Positions 1,927 through 10,563 of a stretch of 64,000 bases of DNA are shown here, in pieces. Position numbers and translations under genes: made by a program. Every line of letters begins with the position of its first letter. Position 1 is the first letter of the stretch. The stretch spans positions 124,001 to 188,000 of the forward strand of contig CAIOHR010000055.1 in the NCBI GenBank assembly GCA_903858115.1, read 5' to 3'. Under the pieces are notes generated by a model. The model ran no database searches, was not told the DNA's origin, and saw nothing but the letters and a program-made list of their open reading frames with translations. The DNA comes from an uncultured Pirellula sp. (GTDB taxonomy: Bacteria > Planctomycetota > Planctomycetia > Pirellulales > Pirellulaceae).

Positions 1927-3705
1927 CTAAGGCACAGATAGCAAGACCGATTGATCCAATGGATCCAGCCCTAAACTGGCTTGCAGTGCAGCAATTGCTG
2001 CAAAGTACTCACGCTCAGCCTCGTAGAGTTTTGCTTCAGCCTCGGTAACTTTGACCTCTTGCTGTAGCAATAACACCAAGTCAAAGTCCCCAGCAGTAAG
2101 TGCTAGTTGGAAATAGCCTTGGACTTTGGTCGCTTCCTCCAGTAATCCTCTAGCAGCTACCACATTTTGATAGGAATATCCAACATGGTTTCTGGATGTC
2201 TGGATTTCGTTGGCAATTTTGTTCCGCTGAAACTCGAGCTTTTGTTCTAACTGGGTTAGCTTGGCTGTTGTACTTTGAATCTTACCGAACGCTTTATTGC
2301 GTTGTACGGGAACATCACCGACAATACCGGCTTCCAATTCGAGCTCGCTCTTATCTTTTCTCGGAGATCCGGCCTTACCAACGTCCTGAGCCGCCTGGAT
2401 TGTAAAGTCCACGTTCGCCAACGTTTGGTTTCGCGCCAATTGAAGGTCCCAACGGACCTCTCGAGACAATAAATCGATGAGTTGTATTTCCGGTCTCGCG
2501 GTCAAAGCGTTCGAGAGATCTTGCTCTAGACTTTGAAAAGCTATCTCCACTGCATCCGGAAAATCCGAGGGTAGCCAATCGGGCGACGCGAGCATCGGCT
2601 TACCTGCTTCATCTCTCAGGAACAGCGAGAGTTTGATCGCCGCATCCAGGAACTTCATGCGAGTATCATTCACCTTCATTTGACGAGAGTAGATTTCTTG
2701 TTTATTGAGAGATACCTTGAGCCTAGTTCCCGTGTTGTTGCGCAACTCGAGTTCAAACTGCTCGCCTCGTTCCACGGCGATTTGAAGCAATCGCTCCTGC
2801 GCGACAAGAACTTTTCCTTGCTCCACCCATAACCAATAGGCTAGCGCGGCATCCCTCGTGGCGACGAGAAGTTGGAATTGCACCTCGGGGCCAACGGCCT
2901 GTTGTCGAAGATTCGCTTGAAACAACTCCACCCGTTGTGGATCGATTGCGCGTCCTTGCAGTAGAGGTTGGATATAGTTGACCTTGAACTCGCCACCTTC
3001 ACTGGTTTCGCGTTCTTTGAACCAGGATTCGAAATTCCCTCTGCCGTTCCGATATCCAGTTCCCACATACCCGCCAAACCATGTTTGTCGAGCGACCCCA
3101 ATTCCATTCCGATAGGTTTCGTAGAATCCTACCGGTTGGTTTAGCGAGTAGTACTCGATTTTGGTATCATAGGCACCCCAGGCAGATTGGATTTCCCCGC
3201 GCGCGATTCCAGCTTGCAATCGAGCGATCTCGATCAAAGGAAAGGCTCGAAAGGTCGATGCGATGACGTCGTTTAGCTGCAGCGCATCGGGATTGATTGT
3301 TTCCAACTTCGGCTCTTGAACGGGCGGCGATACAGAACCATTGGTGGTGGCTGGTGGCGGCAGCGCGTTGGCCTCTGAATCTCTGCGTTCGTTCTCTGCA
3401 CGCTGTGACTCTCTGCGGATCTGTCCTCTCGTAGCCTCCCCTTTTTCCTGGTCGACGCGTCGCAAATCCCGATTCAGCTGATCGCGAACGGAATCTCGCT
3501 GCATTTGCAACTGGCTATCTCTCGGTAGATCTCTTGGCAACGTCGGATCTTGTGCGTTCCCATCCCCTGACAGGCATGCACCCATCAGGATCGCAAGCGT
3601 TTTGCAGACTACTTGCCAACTTTGGGTTTTTTGATCTCTTTCTCTTTGGACTTCTCTTCGCCGGCGTTTTCGCGCGTTGGAGGAAACCCGTTGAGTTGAC
3701 GCCAT
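1927..3705 (-). CDS. TolC-family outer-membrane efflux protein
   Basis: 592 residues. It is predicted to form the outer-membrane channel of a tripartite exporter. An Arg-rich N-terminus and a hydrophobic run ending near GDGNAQ suggest a secretion signal. Residues about 55-110 are charged and low in complexity (repeated RD/RE/QR). The rest has the long amphipathic helices and coiled-coil texture of outer-membrane efflux proteins, including a typical ending (EAKLYEAEREYFAAIAALQASLGLD). It is the third gene of the operon, and its start overlaps the end of the HlyD gene by 97 bp. No later ATG, GTG or TTG would keep the signal peptide intact, so the long overlap seems real, although start choice is uncertain. 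Family identity is well supported; the exported substrate is unknown. Confidence 0.85.
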   Translation of the reverse strand: MASTQRVSSNARKRRRREVQRERDQKTQSWQVVCKTLAILMGACLSGDGNAQDPTLPRDLPRDSQLQMQRDSVRDQLNRDLRRVDQEKGEATRGQIRRESQRAENERRDSEANALPPPATTNGSVSPPVQEPKLETINPDALQLNDVIASTFRAFPLIEIARLQAGIARGEIQSAWGAYDTKIEYYSLNQPVGFYETYRNGIGVARQTWFGGYVGTGYRNGRGNFESWFKERETSEGGEFKVNYIQPLLQGRAIDPQRVELFQANLRQQAVGPEVQFQLLVATRDAALAYWLWVEQGKVLVAQERLLQIAVERGEQFELELRNNTGTRLKVSLNKQEIYSRQMKVNDTRMKFLDAAIKLSLFLRDEAGKPMLASPDWLPSDFPDAVEIAFQSLEQDLSNALTARPEIQLIDLLSREVRWDLQLARNQTLANVDFTIQAAQDVGKAGSPRKDKSELELEAGIVGDVPVQRNKAFGKIQSTTAKLTQLEQKLEFQRNKIANEIQTSRNHVGYSYQNVVAARGLLEEATKVQGYFQLALTAGDFDLVLLLQQEVKVTEAEAKLYEAEREYFAAIAALQASLGLDPLDQSVLLSVP

Positions 3706-5027
3706 ATTTCGAAACCAAGTGGGACGCTTTCCATAATGATCCAGGCATTGGCCCGAACCCCTTGCTTTAAGTATCGTCTATCTGGCCATCTTTCTTCGAT
3801 GGGATCTGTAGGATCTGGAACGACAAACACCTTGAAATTGCCCTTTCCATCGTCTGCCGGATTGATAGCAAACACGATGCCTCCAAAAGTACCGCGGGCC
3901 GCACTCGGCCAACCCACGAATTGGATGGCTGGCCAACCGTCGAACTGCAAACGAACTTTATCGCCGATATGGATCAGAGGTTGATCCATCCCGCGGACGC
4001 TCAATTCGACCCATAGAAAATCCGTGTCGGGAATGATCTCAAACAATGGATCGCCGATATCCACATTCTTGCCAACTTGGCCGAGGATAGACTGGACGCT
4101 TCCTTTATTAGGGCTAATGACTTGCGTTCGTTCAAGCTCTCCGATTTTTAATAGAACATCTTGCAGGAGCTTGGATTCTTCTGCAATCTTGCCCATAAAC
4201 TCCTGAACCTTTTGTTCGCTCTGGTTAATTTTGATATCAATTTCACGTCGCTTGCTATCGAGCAATTGTTCTTTAGCGACCTTTTCTTGGAATGCTTCTT
4301 CTTCTTCTTCGTGCGCTTTAAGAAGGTTCTTTTCTTCAATTTCCTCTTCCGTTTCGGCTTGCTGATATTCAAGTTCTGAAACGGTGATCCCTCTCAAATT
4401 TGCGATGGTTAGCACGTTGACTCGAGCTTGTTTCGCTTTTCTGGATTGCGCTTCCGAATTCGCTTGAGCTTTCCTCCAATTTGCTTGGGCTCCTTTAATC
4501 TCAGCTTCCGCAGACGTAATCTGCTTTTGCCCGCTCTCTTTGGTATCCTTGACTTGTTGTTCAACGCTCGTCAACTGGGATTTCAAGGTTGAGAGCTTGT
4601 CGTTTACCTGCTTTTCTTGAAATCTCGTCAATTCCAATTCGTCTTTGGCGAGCGTATCGAGAACCATCAACAACTCGCCTTGCTCGACGAGAGAGCCTTC
4701 TTGCAGATCTTCTTTTTGCCATTTGATGACCCCCTTCGCAGTACTCAAGAATATCTGTCTTCGTTCATTGGGATTTCGTGCCGTCACCATTCCCTCGCAA
4801 CGCGATGTTTGCTGCCACGGGACAAAGATCCCGGCGATGATAAACATCAGCAACAAATAGAACGTGATGTTCGCGAGTGAGCGCGCGAACCAACTCGAAC
4901 GGACCAAATGCATGGCTGGAAAGTTTTCCGCGAGCATCTCCGAAGGGCGATAGCGGATCATTCGCTTTTTCGAGCGGAGGTTATGATTCTCAGGTTGGTT
5001 CGGTTCTTCGACTACCCGTGTTCGCAT
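3609..5027 (-). CDS. HlyD-family periplasmic adaptor (membrane fusion protein)
   Basis: 472 residues. A cytoplasmic N-terminus precedes one transmembrane helix (about residues 52-72, ITFYLLLMFIIAGIFV). A split biotinyl-lipoyl domain flanks a long Lys/Glu/Gln-rich coiled-coil hairpin (about residues 120-310), and a beta-barrel-like C-terminal part follows. This is the architecture of adaptors that connect an inner-membrane ABC exporter to TolC. The start overlaps the end of the ABC gene by 16 bp and its own end overlaps the TolC gene, so the three are almost certainly one transcript. The extreme C-terminus is a Lys/Glu tail (EEKSKEKEIKKPKVGK). Confidence 0.88.
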   Translation of the reverse strand: MRTRVVEEPNQPENHNLRSKKRMIRYRPSEMLAENFPAMHLVRSSWFARSLANITFYLLLMFIIAGIFVPWQQTSRCEGMVTARNPNERRQIFLSTAKGVIKWQKEDLQEGSLVEQGELLMVLDTLAKDELELTRFQEKQVNDKLSTLKSQLTSVEQQVKDTKESGQKQITSAEAEIKGAQANWRKAQANSEAQSRKAKQARVNVLTIANLRGITVSELEYQQAETEEEIEEKNLLKAHEEEEEAFQEKVAKEQLLDSKRREIDIKINQSEQKVQEFMGKIAEESKLLQDVLLKIGELERTQVISPNKGSVQSILGQVGKNVDIGDPLFEIIPDTDFLWVELSVRGMDQPLIHIGDKVRLQFDGWPAIQFVGWPSAARGTFGGIVFAINPADDGKGNFKVFVVPDPTDPIEERWPDRRYLKQGVRANAWIIMESVPLGFEIWRQLNGFPPTRENAGEEKSKEKEIKKPKVGK

Positions 5028-7216
5028 GAGCTCAAATCCTTATTTTCGTCGCACTGTTCAATAATGGTTGGATCGTGTGTTGCCACGATCAGCGTCCAGG
5101 GTTGTTTCTTGTCTCTTAATCGATCCCAAATCTCGTTTCGCATCCGACCGGGTAAAGCGTCGAGAACTCCATCGATGAGAAGCAATCGAGGAACCGACAC
5201 GATCGCCCGAGCAATCATCAATCGAGCCATTTGCGAAGGTTCTAAAGGATAGCCATCGCTCTGAAGTGCTGTTTCTAGACCATTCGGTAGCGTCAGAGCT
5301 TCGTCCCAAAGGCCTGCCGTGATTAGGGCATCGCGAACATCAGCAGTCGAGACCGTCAAACGATTCAATGAAATGTTTTCCTGCAGTGTTCCGTGGAAAA
5401 TCTCAGTCCTCGATGCAATGGCAACCATCGAGCCTTCGGAAAATCGATTGACCTCGCGTGAATCAATACCTCCGATTTCAATGAGACCATGCGCGGGTGT
5501 ATCCAATCCGCACAAGCATTCCATCAACTGTGGGCGTCCGCAATCGCCATCGCCATAAATTGCAAATCTCGATCCGCTTGCAATCTTTATATTCCCAAAC
5601 TTCATCAATTTATGACCGCTCGATTGAACTCCTAAATCCTCCATTCGAACCTCTACCGGCCCGGTGCCAGCATCGAGTGTTCGCGAGGGTGGGAGCGTGG
5701 GTAAATCGATTAAGTGCCCCACTTTGTCGGTGGATGCCATCAGGTCATAGAAAGACTCCAACGATTTACCTATTTTTGCAAAGGCGCCCACCACAATGGC
5801 GATAACCGAAACACTCGCAACCAATTGGCCGATGGTCAAAGTGTTTGATAGCACCAGCCACAGCCCTAGTGCTAGAATCGCGGTGATAGAGATAGAATAA
5901 AGAAGTAACGAAAACAGAGTTTGCCGCATCAGCACGATAAAGTGTTTACGCCTCGCTGCCAAATACTCGACCGTTAATCGATTCGCTCGGTCGACTACCA
6001 GTTCTCTGCCGCCGTGGACTTGGAACGCCAAAGGACTACCGATCACATCTTGAAGCCAATGGGCAATTCGATACTTGACCAAGGATTCCTCAATCGCAGT
6101 TCGAACCGCATTCCTTCCTAGAATCAATAGGAACAAGGTCATGCACATAATCAAGACGATGTCGAACGCCAATAGGAACGGACTATAGATGGCGAGCAGC
6201 AAAAGACCTGTCAACGTTTGAATGATCAACGACAAACCTTCGACAAGAAGGGTGGCTGTCGCTTTCTGCATGGTCATCACATCGAAGAATCGATTGGCCA
6301 TCTCTGGACCATAGATGCCTCGCATCGACGATCGCTCCAAGCGAGGCAACCGCTCCGATAGGTCCCCGACGATTCGAACAAACATGCGCCTTTGCAAAAT
6401 TTCAACGATGAAGAACTGCAACCCTTTGATCACAGCCGAAAGAGAAAGTAGACCAAAGAGCAAGATGGCCAGCCAAATCAGCGGTTGAGTCAAGCTGGTG
6501 AATCCGATGGTCGTCACCATCTGTTCGATCGCCAGCGGTGTCGATAACTCGAGAACTGCGACTACGAATCCAAAAATCACCAGGGACCAAATATCTCGTG
6601 TATCTGCCTTTAGAAACTCTATCATCCGCCGAAGAGGAGATAAATGCTCATGCGCATGGTCGTCGTGATCGTGGTCGTGATCGTGACTGCCAGCGACGCG
6701 GTTCGAGGCAGAATGTGAAACATGCTGTTGATGCGATGAAGCAGCGGTCGCACACGTCAACGAGGGTTCTGCGACAAAGCAGAATGCATTTTCTCGCTTC
6801 ATCTGCCGAATGAGTTCCCGCCGCGTTAAGGATTCGGAAACATTTCCGCTCGCCTGGATGGTTGTCGCATCTAATCTGCCAAAAGAAATGTCGGAGTAGA
6901 GGATCGCTCGAGCACCATCCACTCGGGACCGTATCGCAACGACAACAAACCCCTCCAACACGAGTTCCCAAGCGTCAGTGCCCCCGAGCTCGATCGGAGC
7001 CAATCGGATCCCAATCCCTCGCGCCGCGCGCATCATCACCAGCGTGATGGAATCCTCTGTCTGTTCTTGAAGGTCGCTCAGAGAATCCGACAGAGATTGT
7101 TGCAATCGCCCAGCCTCGACGGAAATATCCAGGCGGACCGCTAGCTCGCTCAACGTAGATCGAAGCAACTCAAGCAATTGGACGTTCGACCTGCCATCAA
7201 TAGCTGGCTTTTGCAT
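5012..7216 (-). CDS. ABC exporter-like protein with degenerate ATPase domain and His-rich linker
   Basis: 734 residues from the ATG at 7216, chosen because AGGAGG lies 4 bases before it; an upstream in-frame ATG at 7255 has no such site. Order: an N-terminal soluble domain of about 170 residues that may be a relic of a C39-like domain, a His/Asp-rich stretch near 175-190 (HDHDHDHDDHAHEH), six-helix ABC membrane domain (about 205-480), and an ABC nucleotide-binding fold (about 525-734). The nucleotide-binding domain lacks canonical residues: the Walker A position reads GDGDCGRPQ (no GKS/T), the Q-loop position AIASRTEIF, the signature LEPSQ instead of LSGGQ, and Walker B LLLIDG without the catalytic Glu. 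The switch His survives in ATHD. It heads the operon with HlyD and TolC. Either the domain is a structural pseudo-ATPase or energy comes from elsewhere. Confidence 0.82.
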   Translation of the reverse strand: MQKPAIDGRSNVQLLELLRSTLSELAVRLDISVEAGRLQQSLSDSLSDLQEQTEDSITLVMMRAARGIGIRLAPIELGGTDAWELVLEGFVVVAIRSRVDGARAILYSDISFGRLDATTIQASGNVSESLTRRELIRQMKRENAFCFVAEPSLTCATAASSHQQHVSHSASNRVAGSHDHDHDHDDHAHEHLSPLRRMIEFLKADTRDIWSLVIFGFVVAVLELSTPLAIEQMVTTIGFTSLTQPLIWLAILLFGLLSLSAVIKGLQFFIVEILQRRMFVRIVGDLSERLPRLERSSMRGIYGPEMANRFFDVMTMQKATATLLVEGLSLIIQTLTGLLLLAIYSPFLLAFDIVLIMCMTLFLLILGRNAVRTAIEESLVKYRIAHWLQDVIGSPLAFQVHGGRELVVDRANRLTVEYLAARRKHFIVLMRQTLFSLLLYSISITAILALGLWLVLSNTLTIGQLVASVSVIAIVVGAFAKIGKSLESFYDLMASTDKVGHLIDLPTLPPSRTLDAGTGPVEVRMEDLGVQSSGHKLMKFGNIKIASGSRFAIYGDGDCGRPQLMECLCGLDTPAHGLIEIGGIDSREVNRFSEGSMVAIASRTEIFHGTLQENISLNRLTVSTADVRDALITAGLWDEALTLPNGLETALQSDGYPLEPSQMARLMIARAIVSVPRLLLIDGVLDALPGRMRNEIWDRLRDKKQPWTLIVATHDPTIIEQCDENKDLSSCEHG

Positions 7217-7753
7217 AAAACCTCCTAATAACTCTACTTTACTCAACGGTGCCAAAGCTTACGGATCTGCACATTATTCGCCAATCATGTATCTCGCAAA
7301 GTGCATTTTTCACACTACTTGTTGCGATAAATCAATCGATCGAAAGCGTTTTCTCAAACGTTGGACTTTTTCAATCTGAGTTTTCAGGTAGTAGGGGAAC
7401 GGTTGTTGAAGAATCACTGTAGGTTGGGACTCCAGTCCCGACTCTGTCCTGTTGCGATGGGCCTGGAGAACCGTCCTGCCGTTGGATGCCGTTGGATTTT
7501 ACTTGCCTCAACAGCCAGCATTGCCCTTGCAACCCAGCTTTCTCCATCGGCACGACTGTAGGGATTAATGAAGATCGGTACCTCATTTTCAAAAGGAGTA
7601 AGGTTCGCATGCATTTTGAATCGTTTACGCTTGCAGGAATTGCTGTCGGGCCGGAAACTTCGATATCTTGCGGTTTTGAACAACAGCCGCGAACGTTGAC
7701 TGCTCGTGTAAGCATCGACTGGCCTTTCACAAAACTAGAAGCTGAGGAATTCC
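7217..7753. other. 537-bp intergenic region between divergent operons
   Basis: This region separates the minus-strand exporter operon from the plus-strand pseudo-GS/OleC operon, so it should hold both promoters; no convincing promoter boxes could be assigned. It contains the short palindrome GGGACTCCAGTCCC (7426-7439) inside a motif that recurs near 28.26 kb. A reading frame from ATG 7609 to 7878 (89 codons) has an AAGGAG-like site upstream but resembles nothing recognised and runs into the next gene in another frame. It is not called as a gene. Confidence 0.6.
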
Positions 7754-8926
7754 GTGAAACCAAAGGCAGTGCTAGCGTATTGTCGCGAGAAAGGGATTCG
7801 CGCGTTCGACCTGCGGTATTGCGACCTGGATGGAAACTGGCGGCAAGTCACTTTGCCGGTCACGGGCCTGAACGATAGTTCGTTTGAAGAAGGCTTTGGA
7901 CAAGAGATCGTTCTTCATCCGAAGTCATCGACCAGTTCTTTTTCCATATTGATGCCAAATAGTCACGCAAACTATTTGGATCCACTCACGCAGCACCCGA
8001 CGCTCGTCCTCGTTTCGACGATTCAGGACAATTATCAACTTCAGGAAAGTCCGTTCGATTCCCGATTTGTCGCACAACAGTCACTGCGTTATCTGCAGGC
8101 GACAGGCATTGCAGACGATGTTCAAGTTCGGAACACGCTCCGATTTGGAAGGATGAACCACGAAGATCCAACGGTTGCTCATTCTAATTTATCCGACGAT
8201 CAATTCGTTTTGCGCTGCGACTTAATGGATAAAGCGATTGACGCTGGCGTTAACGTGGATCGACACTACAGCACGGATCGCGGCGTTTCAGATATCGTTT
8301 TGCGATCGACAAGTCTGATTGAATCGGGCGACGACGTGATGATGATGCGATACCTCATTCAACAGATGACATCAATTCAACAGATGACATCAAGCCAATT
8401 GACGACAAACGGTTATTGGGCCACTAGCCAATGGAACATGATGCGAAATGAGGAACCATTGTTTCCTGGTACCGCCCATCGTGGACTCAGCGACACGGGG
8501 ATCCATGCTCAAGCGGGAATTGTTCGACATGCGCCGGTTCTAGCGGCAATATTTCTCTTGCCAAAACTTGCAACCAATGTCTTCGAGTATCCGTACACGG
8601 CTGATAACAATTCAGAGAATTCTGCCTCGATAACACGGGCAATCAACGACGCCTCATCACCTCGTACGCTGACCGTCGAGTTACGCGGCGTTCCAGTAGA
8701 GTCGAATCATTACTTGGCACATGCTGCAACCGTGATGGCGATGATCGATGGAATTCAGAACAAGTGGATGCCCCCGAATTATACCGACCTTCCGAATCGG
8801 ATCTGCACCGAAGCGAAAGCGCTGGCGGAGTGCTTTAACAAAGATTGGGATTTTCTCAATCGCGGCGATGTATTCCAAGAGGAGCTGATCGAGTTCATCC
8901 GCGATCAACTCCATTCCAAATCATGA
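7754..8926 (+). CDS. Glutamine-synthetase-like protein lacking catalytic residues (pseudoenzyme)
   Basis: 390 residues from a GTG start at 7754, with GAGGAA 5-10 bases upstream. The type I glutamine synthetase outline is visible end to end: the beta-grasp start (FDLRYCDLDGNWRQVTLP, then SSFEEGFG), the GIADD segment, and the C-terminal segment SNHYLAHAATVMAMIDGIQN. The catalytic sites are gone. The EAEFF-type metal ligands read NTLRF, the H-x-H of the NGSGMHxH loop reads NGYWATSQ, and the EID position reads SDI. At 390 residues it is shorter than the usual 440-470 of GS I. It overlaps the OleC gene by 4 bp (ATGA), implying translational coupling. A role as ligand-binding or partner protein is inference; glutamine synthesis looks impossible. 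Confidence 0.8.
   Translation: MKPKAVLAYCREKGIRAFDLRYCDLDGNWRQVTLPVTGLNDSSFEEGFGQEIVLHPKSSTSSFSILMPNSHANYLDPLTQHPTLVLVSTIQDNYQLQESPFDSRFVAQQSLRYLQATGIADDVQVRNTLRFGRMNHEDPTVAHSNLSDDQFVLRCDLMDKAIDAGVNVDRHYSTDRGVSDIVLRSTSLIESGDDVMMMRYLIQQMTSIQQMTSSQLTTNGYWATSQWNMMRNEEPLFPGTAHRGLSDTGIHAQAGIVRHAPVLAAIFLLPKLATNVFEYPYTADNNSENSASITRAINDASSPRTLTVELRGVPVESNHYLAHAATVMAMIDGIQNKWMPPNYTDLPNRICTEAKALAECFNKDWDFLNRGDVFQEELIEFIRDQLHSKS
8357..8392 (+). repeat. 18-bp perfect tandem duplication inside the pseudo-GS gene
   Basis: The unit ATTCAACAGATGACATCA occurs twice in direct succession (8357-8374 and 8375-8392). It adds six residues in frame (IQQMTS twice) just before the position of the lost catalytic His loop. 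It looks like a recent slippage or duplication event tolerated by the protein. Confidence 0.95.
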
Positions 8927-10563
8927 ATGTTGCCAAGCGTTTGAGCGAACAATCGCTCAAGAACCCAGATCAGTTAGCGATTGTATCGCCAGCGGGTTCT
9001 CATCGACAAAAGACAAATCGTTCCTACGTTTCCATCTCGATGGCGGACCTCGACCGACGCTCTTCGTCGATCGCCGTTGGATTGCAGTCGATGGGGATCG
9101 GTCCAGGCAAACGCATTGGGCTTCTTGTTCGGTTTGGTGAAGACTTTATTACCCTAGTCTTTGCGATGCTCAAGACGGGTGCGACGATGATCTTGATCGA
9201 TCCCGGCATGGGGCGAAAGAATATCATCCAATGTCTTGCGGCAACGAATCCCGACGGGTTCATCGCGATTCCCATGGCGCATGCGATTGTGCGAATGCTG
9301 TCGTCTCGATTCCCCAGTGCAAAATTGAATGTACTCTCGGGGCGTTGGTTACCAGGGTTGCCGAGCGTCACACTGAGCCAATTGGAGAAATCTTCTCCGC
9401 AGGATTACCGTGATCCGATACATGATTGGGAAGCGGAGTCCGCGATCATCTTCACCACCGGTAGCACGGGACCTCCCAAGGGAGTTCTCTACACGCACAA
9501 AACGTTTCATTCGCAAATCGATTTGATCGCTTCCCGATACGAGATTGAGTCTGGCGGAGTCGACTTGAGTTGCTTCCCGCTATTCGGGTTATTCAATGCG
9601 GTTATGGGAACAACGACTATTCTGCCGGACATGGATCCGACTCGACCCGCGGATGTGGATCCCCCGCGTCTTCTAGATGCGATCGAACAATGGCAAATTG
9701 GCCAATCCTTTGGTTCACCTGCGTTGTGGACTCGCATGGGAAACTACTGCCAGCAAACGGGCCGTTCCATGCCCACCCTAAAGCGCGTTCTCTCCGCGGG
9801 TGCTCCAGTGCCACCCAGAGTTCTTCAGAGTATAAGGTCTGTCATGCATCCGGACGGAAAGATGTACACGCCGTATGGTGCCACCGAGGCTTTGCCGATC
9901 GCATCCATCGAATCACGCGATGTTTTGGGTGAAACAGCAGCCAAAACGGCCGATGGAGCTGGTACGTGCGTTGGCTCGCGGTTCCCAAGTATGGAATGGC
10001 GAGTTATTCGCATCACGGACTCGCCGATGCAACAGATAGGAGAAACAGAGTCGTTGCCCAAAGGTGAAATTGGCGAACTCGTCGTCTCAGGACCTGTGGT
10101 CTCGACCAGATATGTCACTCGTGTGGACCAGAACGCGATTCACAAGCTCTCGGATGGCGACCGCGTATGGCATCGGATGGGAGATGTGGGGTATCTCGAT
10201 TCGCAAGATCGATTCTGGTTTTGCGGTCGCAAGTCGCATCGCGTGACGACAGCCCACGGCACACTCCACACGGAACAAGTCGAGGCGATAGTCAACTCGC
10301 ATCCCGCCATCTATCGTTCCGCATTGGTGGGGACAGGGCAAGCACCGAATCAGAAACCGCTGGTCATTCTGGAGCCGTGGCAGAAAAGCGCGACGCCAAA
10401 GCAACTTGAGAAAGAGATTGCTGATAAGCTGAAAAACTACGCGTTGACGAAAAACATCGCCAACACGGTCGTCTATCCTAAGAAACTTCCGACCGACATT
10501 CGTCACAACTCGAAGATATTTCGCGAGCAGCTCACTCGTTGGGCCAATGACCGACGCGAGTAA
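8923..10563 (+). CDS. oleC: OleC-like beta-lactone synthetase (AMP-binding family)
   Basis: 546 residues from the ATG at 8923, which overlaps the upstream TGA (ATGA). It is an adenylate-forming enzyme: P-loop FTTGSTGPPKGV at 177-188 and A5-type motif YTPYGATE. OleC hallmarks are strong: FPLFGLFN, PDMDPTRPADVDPPRL, FGSPALW, SAGAPVPPRVL and RMGDVGYLDSQDRFWFCGRK match the characteristic spacing of Xanthomonas-type OleC. In the olefin pathway OleC converts the beta-hydroxy acid made by OleA and OleD to a beta-lactone, which OleB decarboxylates to a long-chain alkene. No OleA, OleB or OleD is in the window. An older annotation of such proteins would be fatty-acid CoA ligase. Coupling to the pseudo-GS upstream and a membrane protein 29 bp downstream is unusual. 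Confidence 0.88.
   Translation: MNVAKRLSEQSLKNPDQLAIVSPAGSHRQKTNRSYVSISMADLDRRSSSIAVGLQSMGIGPGKRIGLLVRFGEDFITLVFAMLKTGATMILIDPGMGRKNIIQCLAATNPDGFIAIPMAHAIVRMLSSRFPSAKLNVLSGRWLPGLPSVTLSQLEKSSPQDYRDPIHDWEAESAIIFTTGSTGPPKGVLYTHKTFHSQIDLIASRYEIESGGVDLSCFPLFGLFNAVMGTTTILPDMDPTRPADVDPPRLLDAIEQWQIGQSFGSPALWTRMGNYCQQTGRSMPTLKRVLSAGAPVPPRVLQSIRSVMHPDGKMYTPYGATEALPIASIESRDVLGETAAKTADGAGTCVGSRFPSMEWRVIRITDSPMQQIGETESLPKGEIGELVVSGPVVSTRYVTRVDQNAIHKLSDGDRVWHRMGDVGYLDSQDRFWFCGRKSHRVTTAHGTLHTEQVEAIVNSHPAIYRSALVGTGQAPNQKPLVILEPWQKSATPKQLEKEIADKLKNYALTKNIANTVVYPKKLPTDIRHNSKIFREQLTRWANDRRE

Follow-up and report, generated by a model that had tools for sequence, protein, structure and literature searches.

A widespread family of ABC exporter proteins with degenerate ATPase motifs, encoded together with HlyD and TolC in planctomycetes and on plasmid records

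ATP hydrolysis is the defining property of ATP-binding cassette (ABC) exporters, among which degenerate nucleotide-binding sites are known as one half of a pair; heterodimeric exporters are described as keeping one intact site per pair (PMC7756269). The subject of this study is an ABC protein gene that lies next to genes for a HlyD-type adaptor and a TolC-type channel on a 64,000-nucleotide stretch of DNA from an uncultured Pirellula sp. (Planctomycetota; Planctomycetia; Pirellulales; contig CAIOHR010000055.1 of assembly GCA_903858115.1, positions 124,001 to 188,000), a stretch that is referred to, at its full length, as the window. The gene belongs to a widespread family, judged from substitution patterns to be under selection, whose members combine a subunit degenerate as a whole with an adaptor and a channel of its own. 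On balance we favour the account that the product is a conserved, homodimeric pseudo-ATPase subunit of an exporter with its own HlyD and TolC partners, which would work without ATP hydrolysis at this subunit. Such ATP-free working conflicts with the accepted powering of exporters of this kind, and the family makes it testable whether an ABC membrane domain can, in nature, transport or be gated without a motor. Searches of open-licence PMC papers listed none that describes a pseudo-ATPase ABC-HlyD-TolC family.

Degenerate motifs in the window protein and its relatives

The canonical set of catalytic features comprises Walker A GxxGxGK[ST], the Q-loop Gln, the LSGGQ signature, the Walker B Asp-Glu pair, and the switch His, from which the window protein keeps just the Walker B Asp and the switch His. 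Its Walker A position reads G555-DGDCG-R561-P562-Q563, with R561 and P562 replacing Lys and Ser/Thr; the signature, L658-EPSQ, has lost the Gly-Gly pair; and in the Walker B segment LLLI-D682-G683 the catalytic Glu has become G683. The Q-loop segment (VAIASRTEIF in the window protein) has one residue fewer in 181 of 189 aligned family rows than in all 16 comparison rows, which makes the position of the Gln ambiguous by one; either Ser or Arg stands there in the two possible registers, so that the Gln is absent in both. The sister gene (L019, 95% identical) has a Q-loop Gln in one register. Sequence reading and alignment thus bear out the initial annotation, which had described Walker A, the Walker B Glu, the signature and the Q-loop Gln as degenerate; its remark that only the switch His remains is right as to H714, which is kept, but overlooks the equally intact D682. 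With the P-loop gone and R561 and P562 in its place, ATP binding by the window protein appears unlikely.

The protein is assigned to the ABC exporter superfamily by its Pfam domains (ABC_membrane at residues 212-479 and ABC_tran at 542-682, both above curated cut-offs with modest scores of 34-36 bits) and by its predicted exporter fold. The model, built from a six-sequence alignment, has a mean predicted local distance difference test (pLDDT) score of 61.9, with the core mostly at about 60-85; its top structure match is TmrAB, and PCAT1 and HlyB are among the others. The layout consists of an N-terminal domain (residues ~1-170), a His/Asp-rich stretch (~171-191) that precedes the first transmembrane helix (TM1), a six-helix membrane domain (~192-503) and a degenerate nucleotide domain (~520-725). 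From the residue pattern the N-terminal domain had been suspected to be C39-like, for which Pfam gives no support: neither the window protein nor ten other members has a Pfam C39 match, and this part of the model, mostly below pLDDT 50, is too weak to help. The best NCBIfam models are those of NHLP-bacteriocin and type I secretion exporters (TIGR03796, TIGR03375, TIGR03797), and the best 25 of 88 matches all lie far below their own cut-offs (131.1 bits against 853.3 for NHLM_ABC1, TIGR03796; 115.8 against 693.1 for LssB; 86.4 against 725.55 for HlyB; 92 against 510.15 for PrtD). By those cut-offs the protein falls outside the type I secretion families, and its predicted architecture resembles that of a tripartite exporter.

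The loss of motifs is not confined to the window. In total 189 members were aligned (26 from the window's genus, 24 + 70 from the order, 56 from the phylum and 13 from plasmids), and motifs were tallied on 185 rows after removal of the four without a complete nucleotide domain; a fragment, L044, was left out of all counts. The control set comprised 15 canonical rows, six of them MsbA-like, that represent 14 distinct proteins (P173a and ML240 being the same protein), and the comparison sets of 16 rows for the Q-loop and 14 rows for the His-rich stretch also include the degenerate P177 or a duplicate protein. Among the 185 members the Walker A Lys is kept in 136, the Q-loop Gln in 3, both signature Gly in 3, the Walker B Asp in 159, the Glu in 16 and the switch His in 31, compared with 15, 15, 13, 15, 14 and 15 of the 15 control rows; in the shifted register a Q-loop Gln is found in 22 of the 189 family rows. 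All six features occur together in none of the 185 members and in 12 of the 15 control rows. The alignment with homologues that had been proposed as a check shows that degeneracy marks the family rather than one odd gene, and is broader than first stated.

Within the genus the picture is a mixed one. The initial annotation had named a contrary outcome, in which close relatives keep canonical motifs and this copy is frameshifted. Part of that description applies, as 23 of 26 genus rows retain the Walker A Lys (the exceptions are the window, L030 and the window's sister) and Lys, Asp, Glu and His all survive in L033, L035 and L036; the rest does not, as the Glu is lost in 22 of 25 rows and the complete Gly-Gly pair in 25 of 25, and the window gene has no frameshift. 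Even the three better-preserved rows have the signature LSHSQ and lack the Q-loop Gln.

A tree of the membrane domain alone, computed from 112 representatives and nine controls, recovers the family as one clade with a Shimodaira-Hasegawa-like approximate likelihood ratio (SH-aLRT) support of 99; it is a quick tree with very long control branches, so that the deep order is uncertain. The minimum numbers of state changes on it are 18 for the Lys, 6 for the Asp, 8 for the Glu and 3 for the His, counts which cannot separate gain from loss, although repeated loss of the Lys is the natural reading of at least 18 changes. Members with Lys, Asp, Glu and His (L192, L219, L132, L215, L216 and L223) branch near the base, which suggests that the family ancestor was an ATPase whose motor was lost stepwise; L033, L035 and L036, however, retain the four features from a place within the window's genus.

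Spread, operon structure and selection

A homologue was found in all 27 genomes of the genus, the window's own included (E <= 1e-40; G010 and G018 hold just part of the gene), in at least 103 of 246 sampled genomes of the order (four candidates scored per genome) and in at least 89 of 393 sampled near-complete genomes of the phylum (two candidates scored per genome). Each of the 27 genus genomes, in which as many as 40 candidates were scored, gave a single family match, as did 98 of the 103 of the order, with four scored. A plasmid search with a member from the phylum as query recovered the three-gene operon in Bacteroidota (Persicobacter, Aureibacter, Riemerella) and in sphingomonad plasmid records (Novosphingobium, Sphingobium, Sphingomonas, Croceicoccus). 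Relatives at E <= 1e-30 occur in 22 such records, 15 sphingomonad and seven from Bacteroidota; HlyD and TolC genes are present in all 13 of these records that were examined, and the ABC proteins there are degenerate. The family thus occurs in three phyla, and the label 'ABC transporter ATP-binding protein', seen on the plasmid records, is misleading for it. Among phages only distant matches were obtained, none covering 80% of the query.

The association with an adaptor and a channel is equally persistent. Operon conservation was counted at loci L083-L172 and L194-L233, loci L001-L082 and L178-L193 being excluded for their short flanks. A HlyD gene follows the ABC gene on the same strand within 600 nt at 82 of 85 testable loci of the first set and 34 of 39 of the second, and a same-strand TolC gene is present at 75 of 79 and 34 of 37, respectively. 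In 20 neighbourhoods of 12-20 kb no conserved fourth operon gene stood out; two recurring neighbours, viewed in one genome, are PSCyt2/PSD1 and DUF1501 genes, both of which are common in such genomes. Together with DUF1559, the PSCyt2, PSD1 and DUF1501 genes also point to Planctomycetota as the phylum of the window.

The substitution pattern within the family is the reverse of that seen in a canonical one. In 99.2% of 17,766 family pairs the membrane domain is more alike than the nucleotide domain (mean identities 0.49 and 0.37), whereas in the one control family, 29 canonical MsbA-like proteins from the window's order (30 loci less one that was dropped), the membrane half is ahead in 3.7% of 406 pairs (means 0.58 for the membrane and 0.70 for the nucleotide domain). 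The ratio of nonsynonymous to synonymous substitution rates (dN/dS), computed for 16 pairs of which one was saturated, is 0.012 for the membrane domain, 0.046 for the nucleotide domain and 0.104 for the N-terminal domain between the window gene and its sister; for HlyD and TolC, compared with the sister genome, it is 0.083 and 0.074. These estimates place both the membrane and the nucleotide domain under purifying selection. The residues N308, R309, Q317 and K318 are found in 112 of 112 representatives, and among 11 controls N308 and K318 occur in none, Q317 in one and R309 in several; the first intracellular loop carries a family-specific NRFFDxxxxQK motif. S378, K381, E272, R281 and D491 are present in 96-100% of representatives and in no control. 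The pattern of conservation and these family-specific residues together suggest that the chemistry of the motor was free to vary, whereas the fold has been kept, as has the loop that is expected to make contact with the nucleotide domain.

The same data bear on the possibility that the gene is a pseudogene or a sequencing artefact, to which we attach almost no weight. Beyond the missing motifs nothing speaks for it; the reading frame is intact, the matches in all 27 genus genomes are free of internal stops, dN/dS relative to the sister is far below 1, and with the contrasting conservation of membrane and nucleotide domains added the idea is contradicted and was rejected. Degeneracy across three phyla, open frames, a kept operon and purifying selection instead support the pseudo-ATPase exporter, one of the options that the initial annotation had left side by side.

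In the window all three genes overlap in the order ABC, HlyD, TolC on the minus strand (Table 1). The ABC open reading frame (ORF) is uninterrupted over 5012-7255(-), its 734 codons being counted from the ATG at 7216, just 5' of which stands a Shine-Dalgarno-like AGGAGG. The HlyD gene, read from its first ATG, shares 16 nt with the end of the ABC gene, and the most upstream ATG of the TolC gene, a putative start, gives an overlap of 97 nt with the HlyD gene.

Table 1. Features of the three-gene operon, in window coordinates
Feature	Position	Strand	Basis or remark
ABC exporter subunit, putative pseudo-ATPase, 734 aa	5012..7216	(-)	ORF, Pfam, fold matches, motif alignment
HlyD-type periplasmic adaptor, 472 aa	3609..5027	(-)	ORF, HlyD_3 match
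TolC-type outer-membrane efflux protein, 592 aa with the most upstream ATG as start	1927..3705	(-)	ORF, OEP match
His/Asp-rich stretch, residues 171-191, ending HDHDHDHDDHAHEH, directly before TM1	6644..6706	(-)	possible metal-binding segment

A number of further observations were made in the course of these comparisons. At six loci (L109, L115, L119, L129, L227 and L233) the operon has the order TolC-ABC-HlyD instead of ABC-HlyD-TolC. Three loci, L081 (G162), L103 (G184) and L158 (G113), have one in-frame stop each within the match, which may reflect decay, sequencing error or a match that runs past the true end. The Riemerella anatipestifer record NZ_CP081938.1 (L239) is labelled a plasmid of about 102 kb, yet it has genes of a housekeeping type, murB and rsmI among them, beside the operon and may be a mislabelled chromosomal contig, one of four such records found. 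The genome of the window also encodes a second degenerate exporter-type ABC protein of 609 aa (L177:4649-6478(-), contig C2 at ~6150-7980), with Walker A SLESATADA and signature LAPDQ and without the NRFFDxxxxQK loop, which looks like a member of a different degenerate family. Next to the operon, at 7754-10563(+), lie a divergent glutamine-synthetase-like ORF (390 aa, with only 57 bits for Gln-synt_C) and then an olefin beta-lactone synthetase-like AMP ligase (NF006754, 636 bits); of five further genus neighbourhoods, L083 and L084 have this pair beside the operon as well.

Energy source and competing readings

According to the mechanism that we propose, the inner-membrane subunit of a dedicated ABC-HlyD-TolC exporter would have retained the ABC fold and lost ATP hydrolysis. 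Two copies of the ABC protein would form a homodimer, in which the nucleotide domains may serve as a dimerisation or gating platform joined to the membrane domain via the conserved intracellular loop. Transport through HlyD and TolC would then draw on a power source other than ATP hydrolysis at the ABC subunit. The likeliest sources are a gradient of ions, to which the membrane domain would couple transport, and the gradient of the substrate itself. Relatives with an intact Walker A Lys and Walker B Asp may still bind ATP and use it for gating.

The most obvious alternative is that the degenerate subunit pairs with an intact ABC subunit encoded elsewhere, which hydrolyses ATP. Heterodimeric exporters with a degenerate site are indeed well known (PMC7756269), and a search of the window's genome turned up four intact ABC genes of the exporter type (two on C73 and one each on C317 and C433). 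Strict motif patterns flagged no ORF with both Walker A and LSGG[QE] in the 20 neighbourhoods, where two ABC-like ORFs, each of about 290 aa, have just the Walker A pattern, so a partner in the operon or its surroundings was rejected. Co-occurrence of the four intact genes with the operon was scored in 97 genomes of the order, 42 with the operon and 55 without, at 10-13 candidates per genome and presence cut-offs of 1e-100 for P173a and 1e-80 for the rest, where presence means a close relative and not a proven orthologue. In genomes with and without the operon, respectively, P173a was present in 21/42 and 21/55 (Fisher p 0.30), P173b in 40/42 and 52/55 (1.0), P174 in 34/42 and 50/55 (0.23), and P175 in 29/42 and 41/55 (0.65). 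The near-universal P173b is therefore equally common where the operon is missing, P173a, P174 and P175 are missing from 21, 8 and 13 of the operon-bearing genomes, and none of the four tracks the operon. Moreover, with neither the Glu nor the signature left in the degenerate subunit, pairing it with a canonical partner would be expected to leave both composite sites damaged, and the usual occurrence of a single family member per genome provides no second, related subunit. The dependence on a separate ATPase that the initial annotation had entertained, and its proposal to look for a second intact ABC protein co-occurring with the operon, have accordingly led to intact ABC proteins in the genome but to none associated with the operon, and we regard a partner of this kind as unlikely.

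About equally unlikely, in our estimation, is an unorthodox exporter that is slow or merely binds ATP, in which most members would bind ATP through the kept Lys and Asp, binding would gate the channel and the window lineage would represent a late further loss. The retention of Lys and Asp in 136 and 159 of 185 members speaks for it, as does D686, a family-specific Asp three residues past the lost Glu that is found in 95% of the 112 representatives and is replaced by Ser in 10 of 11 controls; the near-basal members and the three genus rows with Lys, Asp, Glu and His point the same way. Set against this are the 18 or more changes in Lys status, the fact that lineages lacking the P-loop still keep the operon and are mostly under purifying selection, and the replacements R561 and P562 in the window protein itself.

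A Glu in transmembrane helix 6 (TM6), a candidate ion-binding residue, is present in 158 of 189 family rows and in none of 11 controls. Counting from the Walker A Lys, with K388 as what we take to be that residue in LmrA, the family Glu is displaced from LmrA E314 by about 20 residues towards the periplasm. In PMC6155054 the LmrA membrane domain, without its nucleotide domain, is reported to carry out ethidium-proton symport that needs a TM6 Glu. An equation of the two residues was set aside as a loose parallel, given this offset and the Val found at the position in the window's genus.

A second lead is the His-rich stretch. Three or more His within the 25 aa before TM1 are found in 26 of 26 genus rows and in none of 14 comparison rows. 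Of 106 non-redundant rows from beyond the genus, 95 have 10 or more residues ahead of TM1, and 46 of these 95 reach that number of His, compared with 2.7% of random windows of the same proteins; some short members without the N-terminal domain also start with such a stretch. This hints at metals, as a lead and not as proof. One may extend the preferred account to secondary-active tripartite exporters on an ABC scaffold, spread across phyla and coupled to ions, possibly for metal ions that the His-rich stretch gathers, which would pass their substrate to HlyD and TolC without ATP; as a whole we hold this extension to be tentative and rather doubtful. The stretch, along with the degenerate motor, would also fit a protein that is no longer a transporter and acts as a structural or sensory anchor for HlyD-TolC, such as a metal-sensing gate that opens the conduit to other machines or to periplasmic substrates. 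This appears improbable, as the membrane domain is the most constrained part of the protein (dN/dS 0.012), which is expected of a pathway rather than of a mere anchor.

Several observations weigh against a pseudo-ATPase exporter that works without ATP hydrolysis. The Walker A Lys is retained so widely that ATP binding may still matter in most members, and ten of the 185, including the three in the genus, retain Lys, Asp, Glu and His together, so that some relatives may be slow ATPases. The nucleotide-domain dN/dS of pairs without a P-loop outside the genus (n = 7) is 0.095-0.196 in six and 0.49 in the seventh (L203/L204, with 0.51 in the membrane domain), and these pairs look somewhat more relaxed than most of the seven usable pairs that keep the Lys (0.045-0.192). 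The TM6 Glu is Val in all 26 genus rows and cannot, for that reason, be the general answer to energy coupling. Ion currents through LmrA needed ATP binding in the setting reported in PMC6155054, where the construct without the nucleotide domain gave none. Finally, there may be an unlinked partner ATPase outside the tested set.

Relation to described systems

With type I secretion and NHLP exporters (HlyB, LssB, NHLM ABC1/ABC2) the window family shares its best NCBIfam matches, adjoining HlyD and TolC genes and the predicted exporter fold. It differs from them in scores far below the cut-offs, the loss of catalytic motifs, the NRFFDxxxxQK loop and, in the window protein and ten members, the lack of a Pfam C39 domain. 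MacB, of the MacAB-TolC system, has a four-helix fold of the FtsX type with a periplasmic domain; what the window protein shows instead is an ABC_membrane domain and structural matches to exporters.

Within the same phylum, type I secretion-like loci that combine SecA_DEAD, HlyD and M50-peptidase genes have been described (PMC4452313), for which the authors could find no ABC transporter homologue. The two arrangements are alike in being based on HlyD and in lacking a canonical ABC motor. The SecA_DEAD/HlyD module was nonetheless rejected as an identity for the window operon, since by its description there it is a different gene set and here the ABC protein is the first gene; SecA_DEAD genes were not searched for in this work.

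The heterodimeric exporters (TmrAB, TM287/288, TAP, BmrCD) have likewise lost a catalytic Glu and carry a non-consensus signature, and TmrAB is the top fold match. Whereas they keep one intact site, the window subunit is without both the Glu and the signature and has no linked partner; classification as a heterodimeric exporter with a degenerate site was rejected, no partner having been found in the 20 neighbourhoods or among the four unlinked candidates. For ion-coupled transport by the membrane domain of an ABC protein, LmrA and its isolated membrane domain (LmrA-MD) serve as a precedent, although LmrA itself is a full ATPase.

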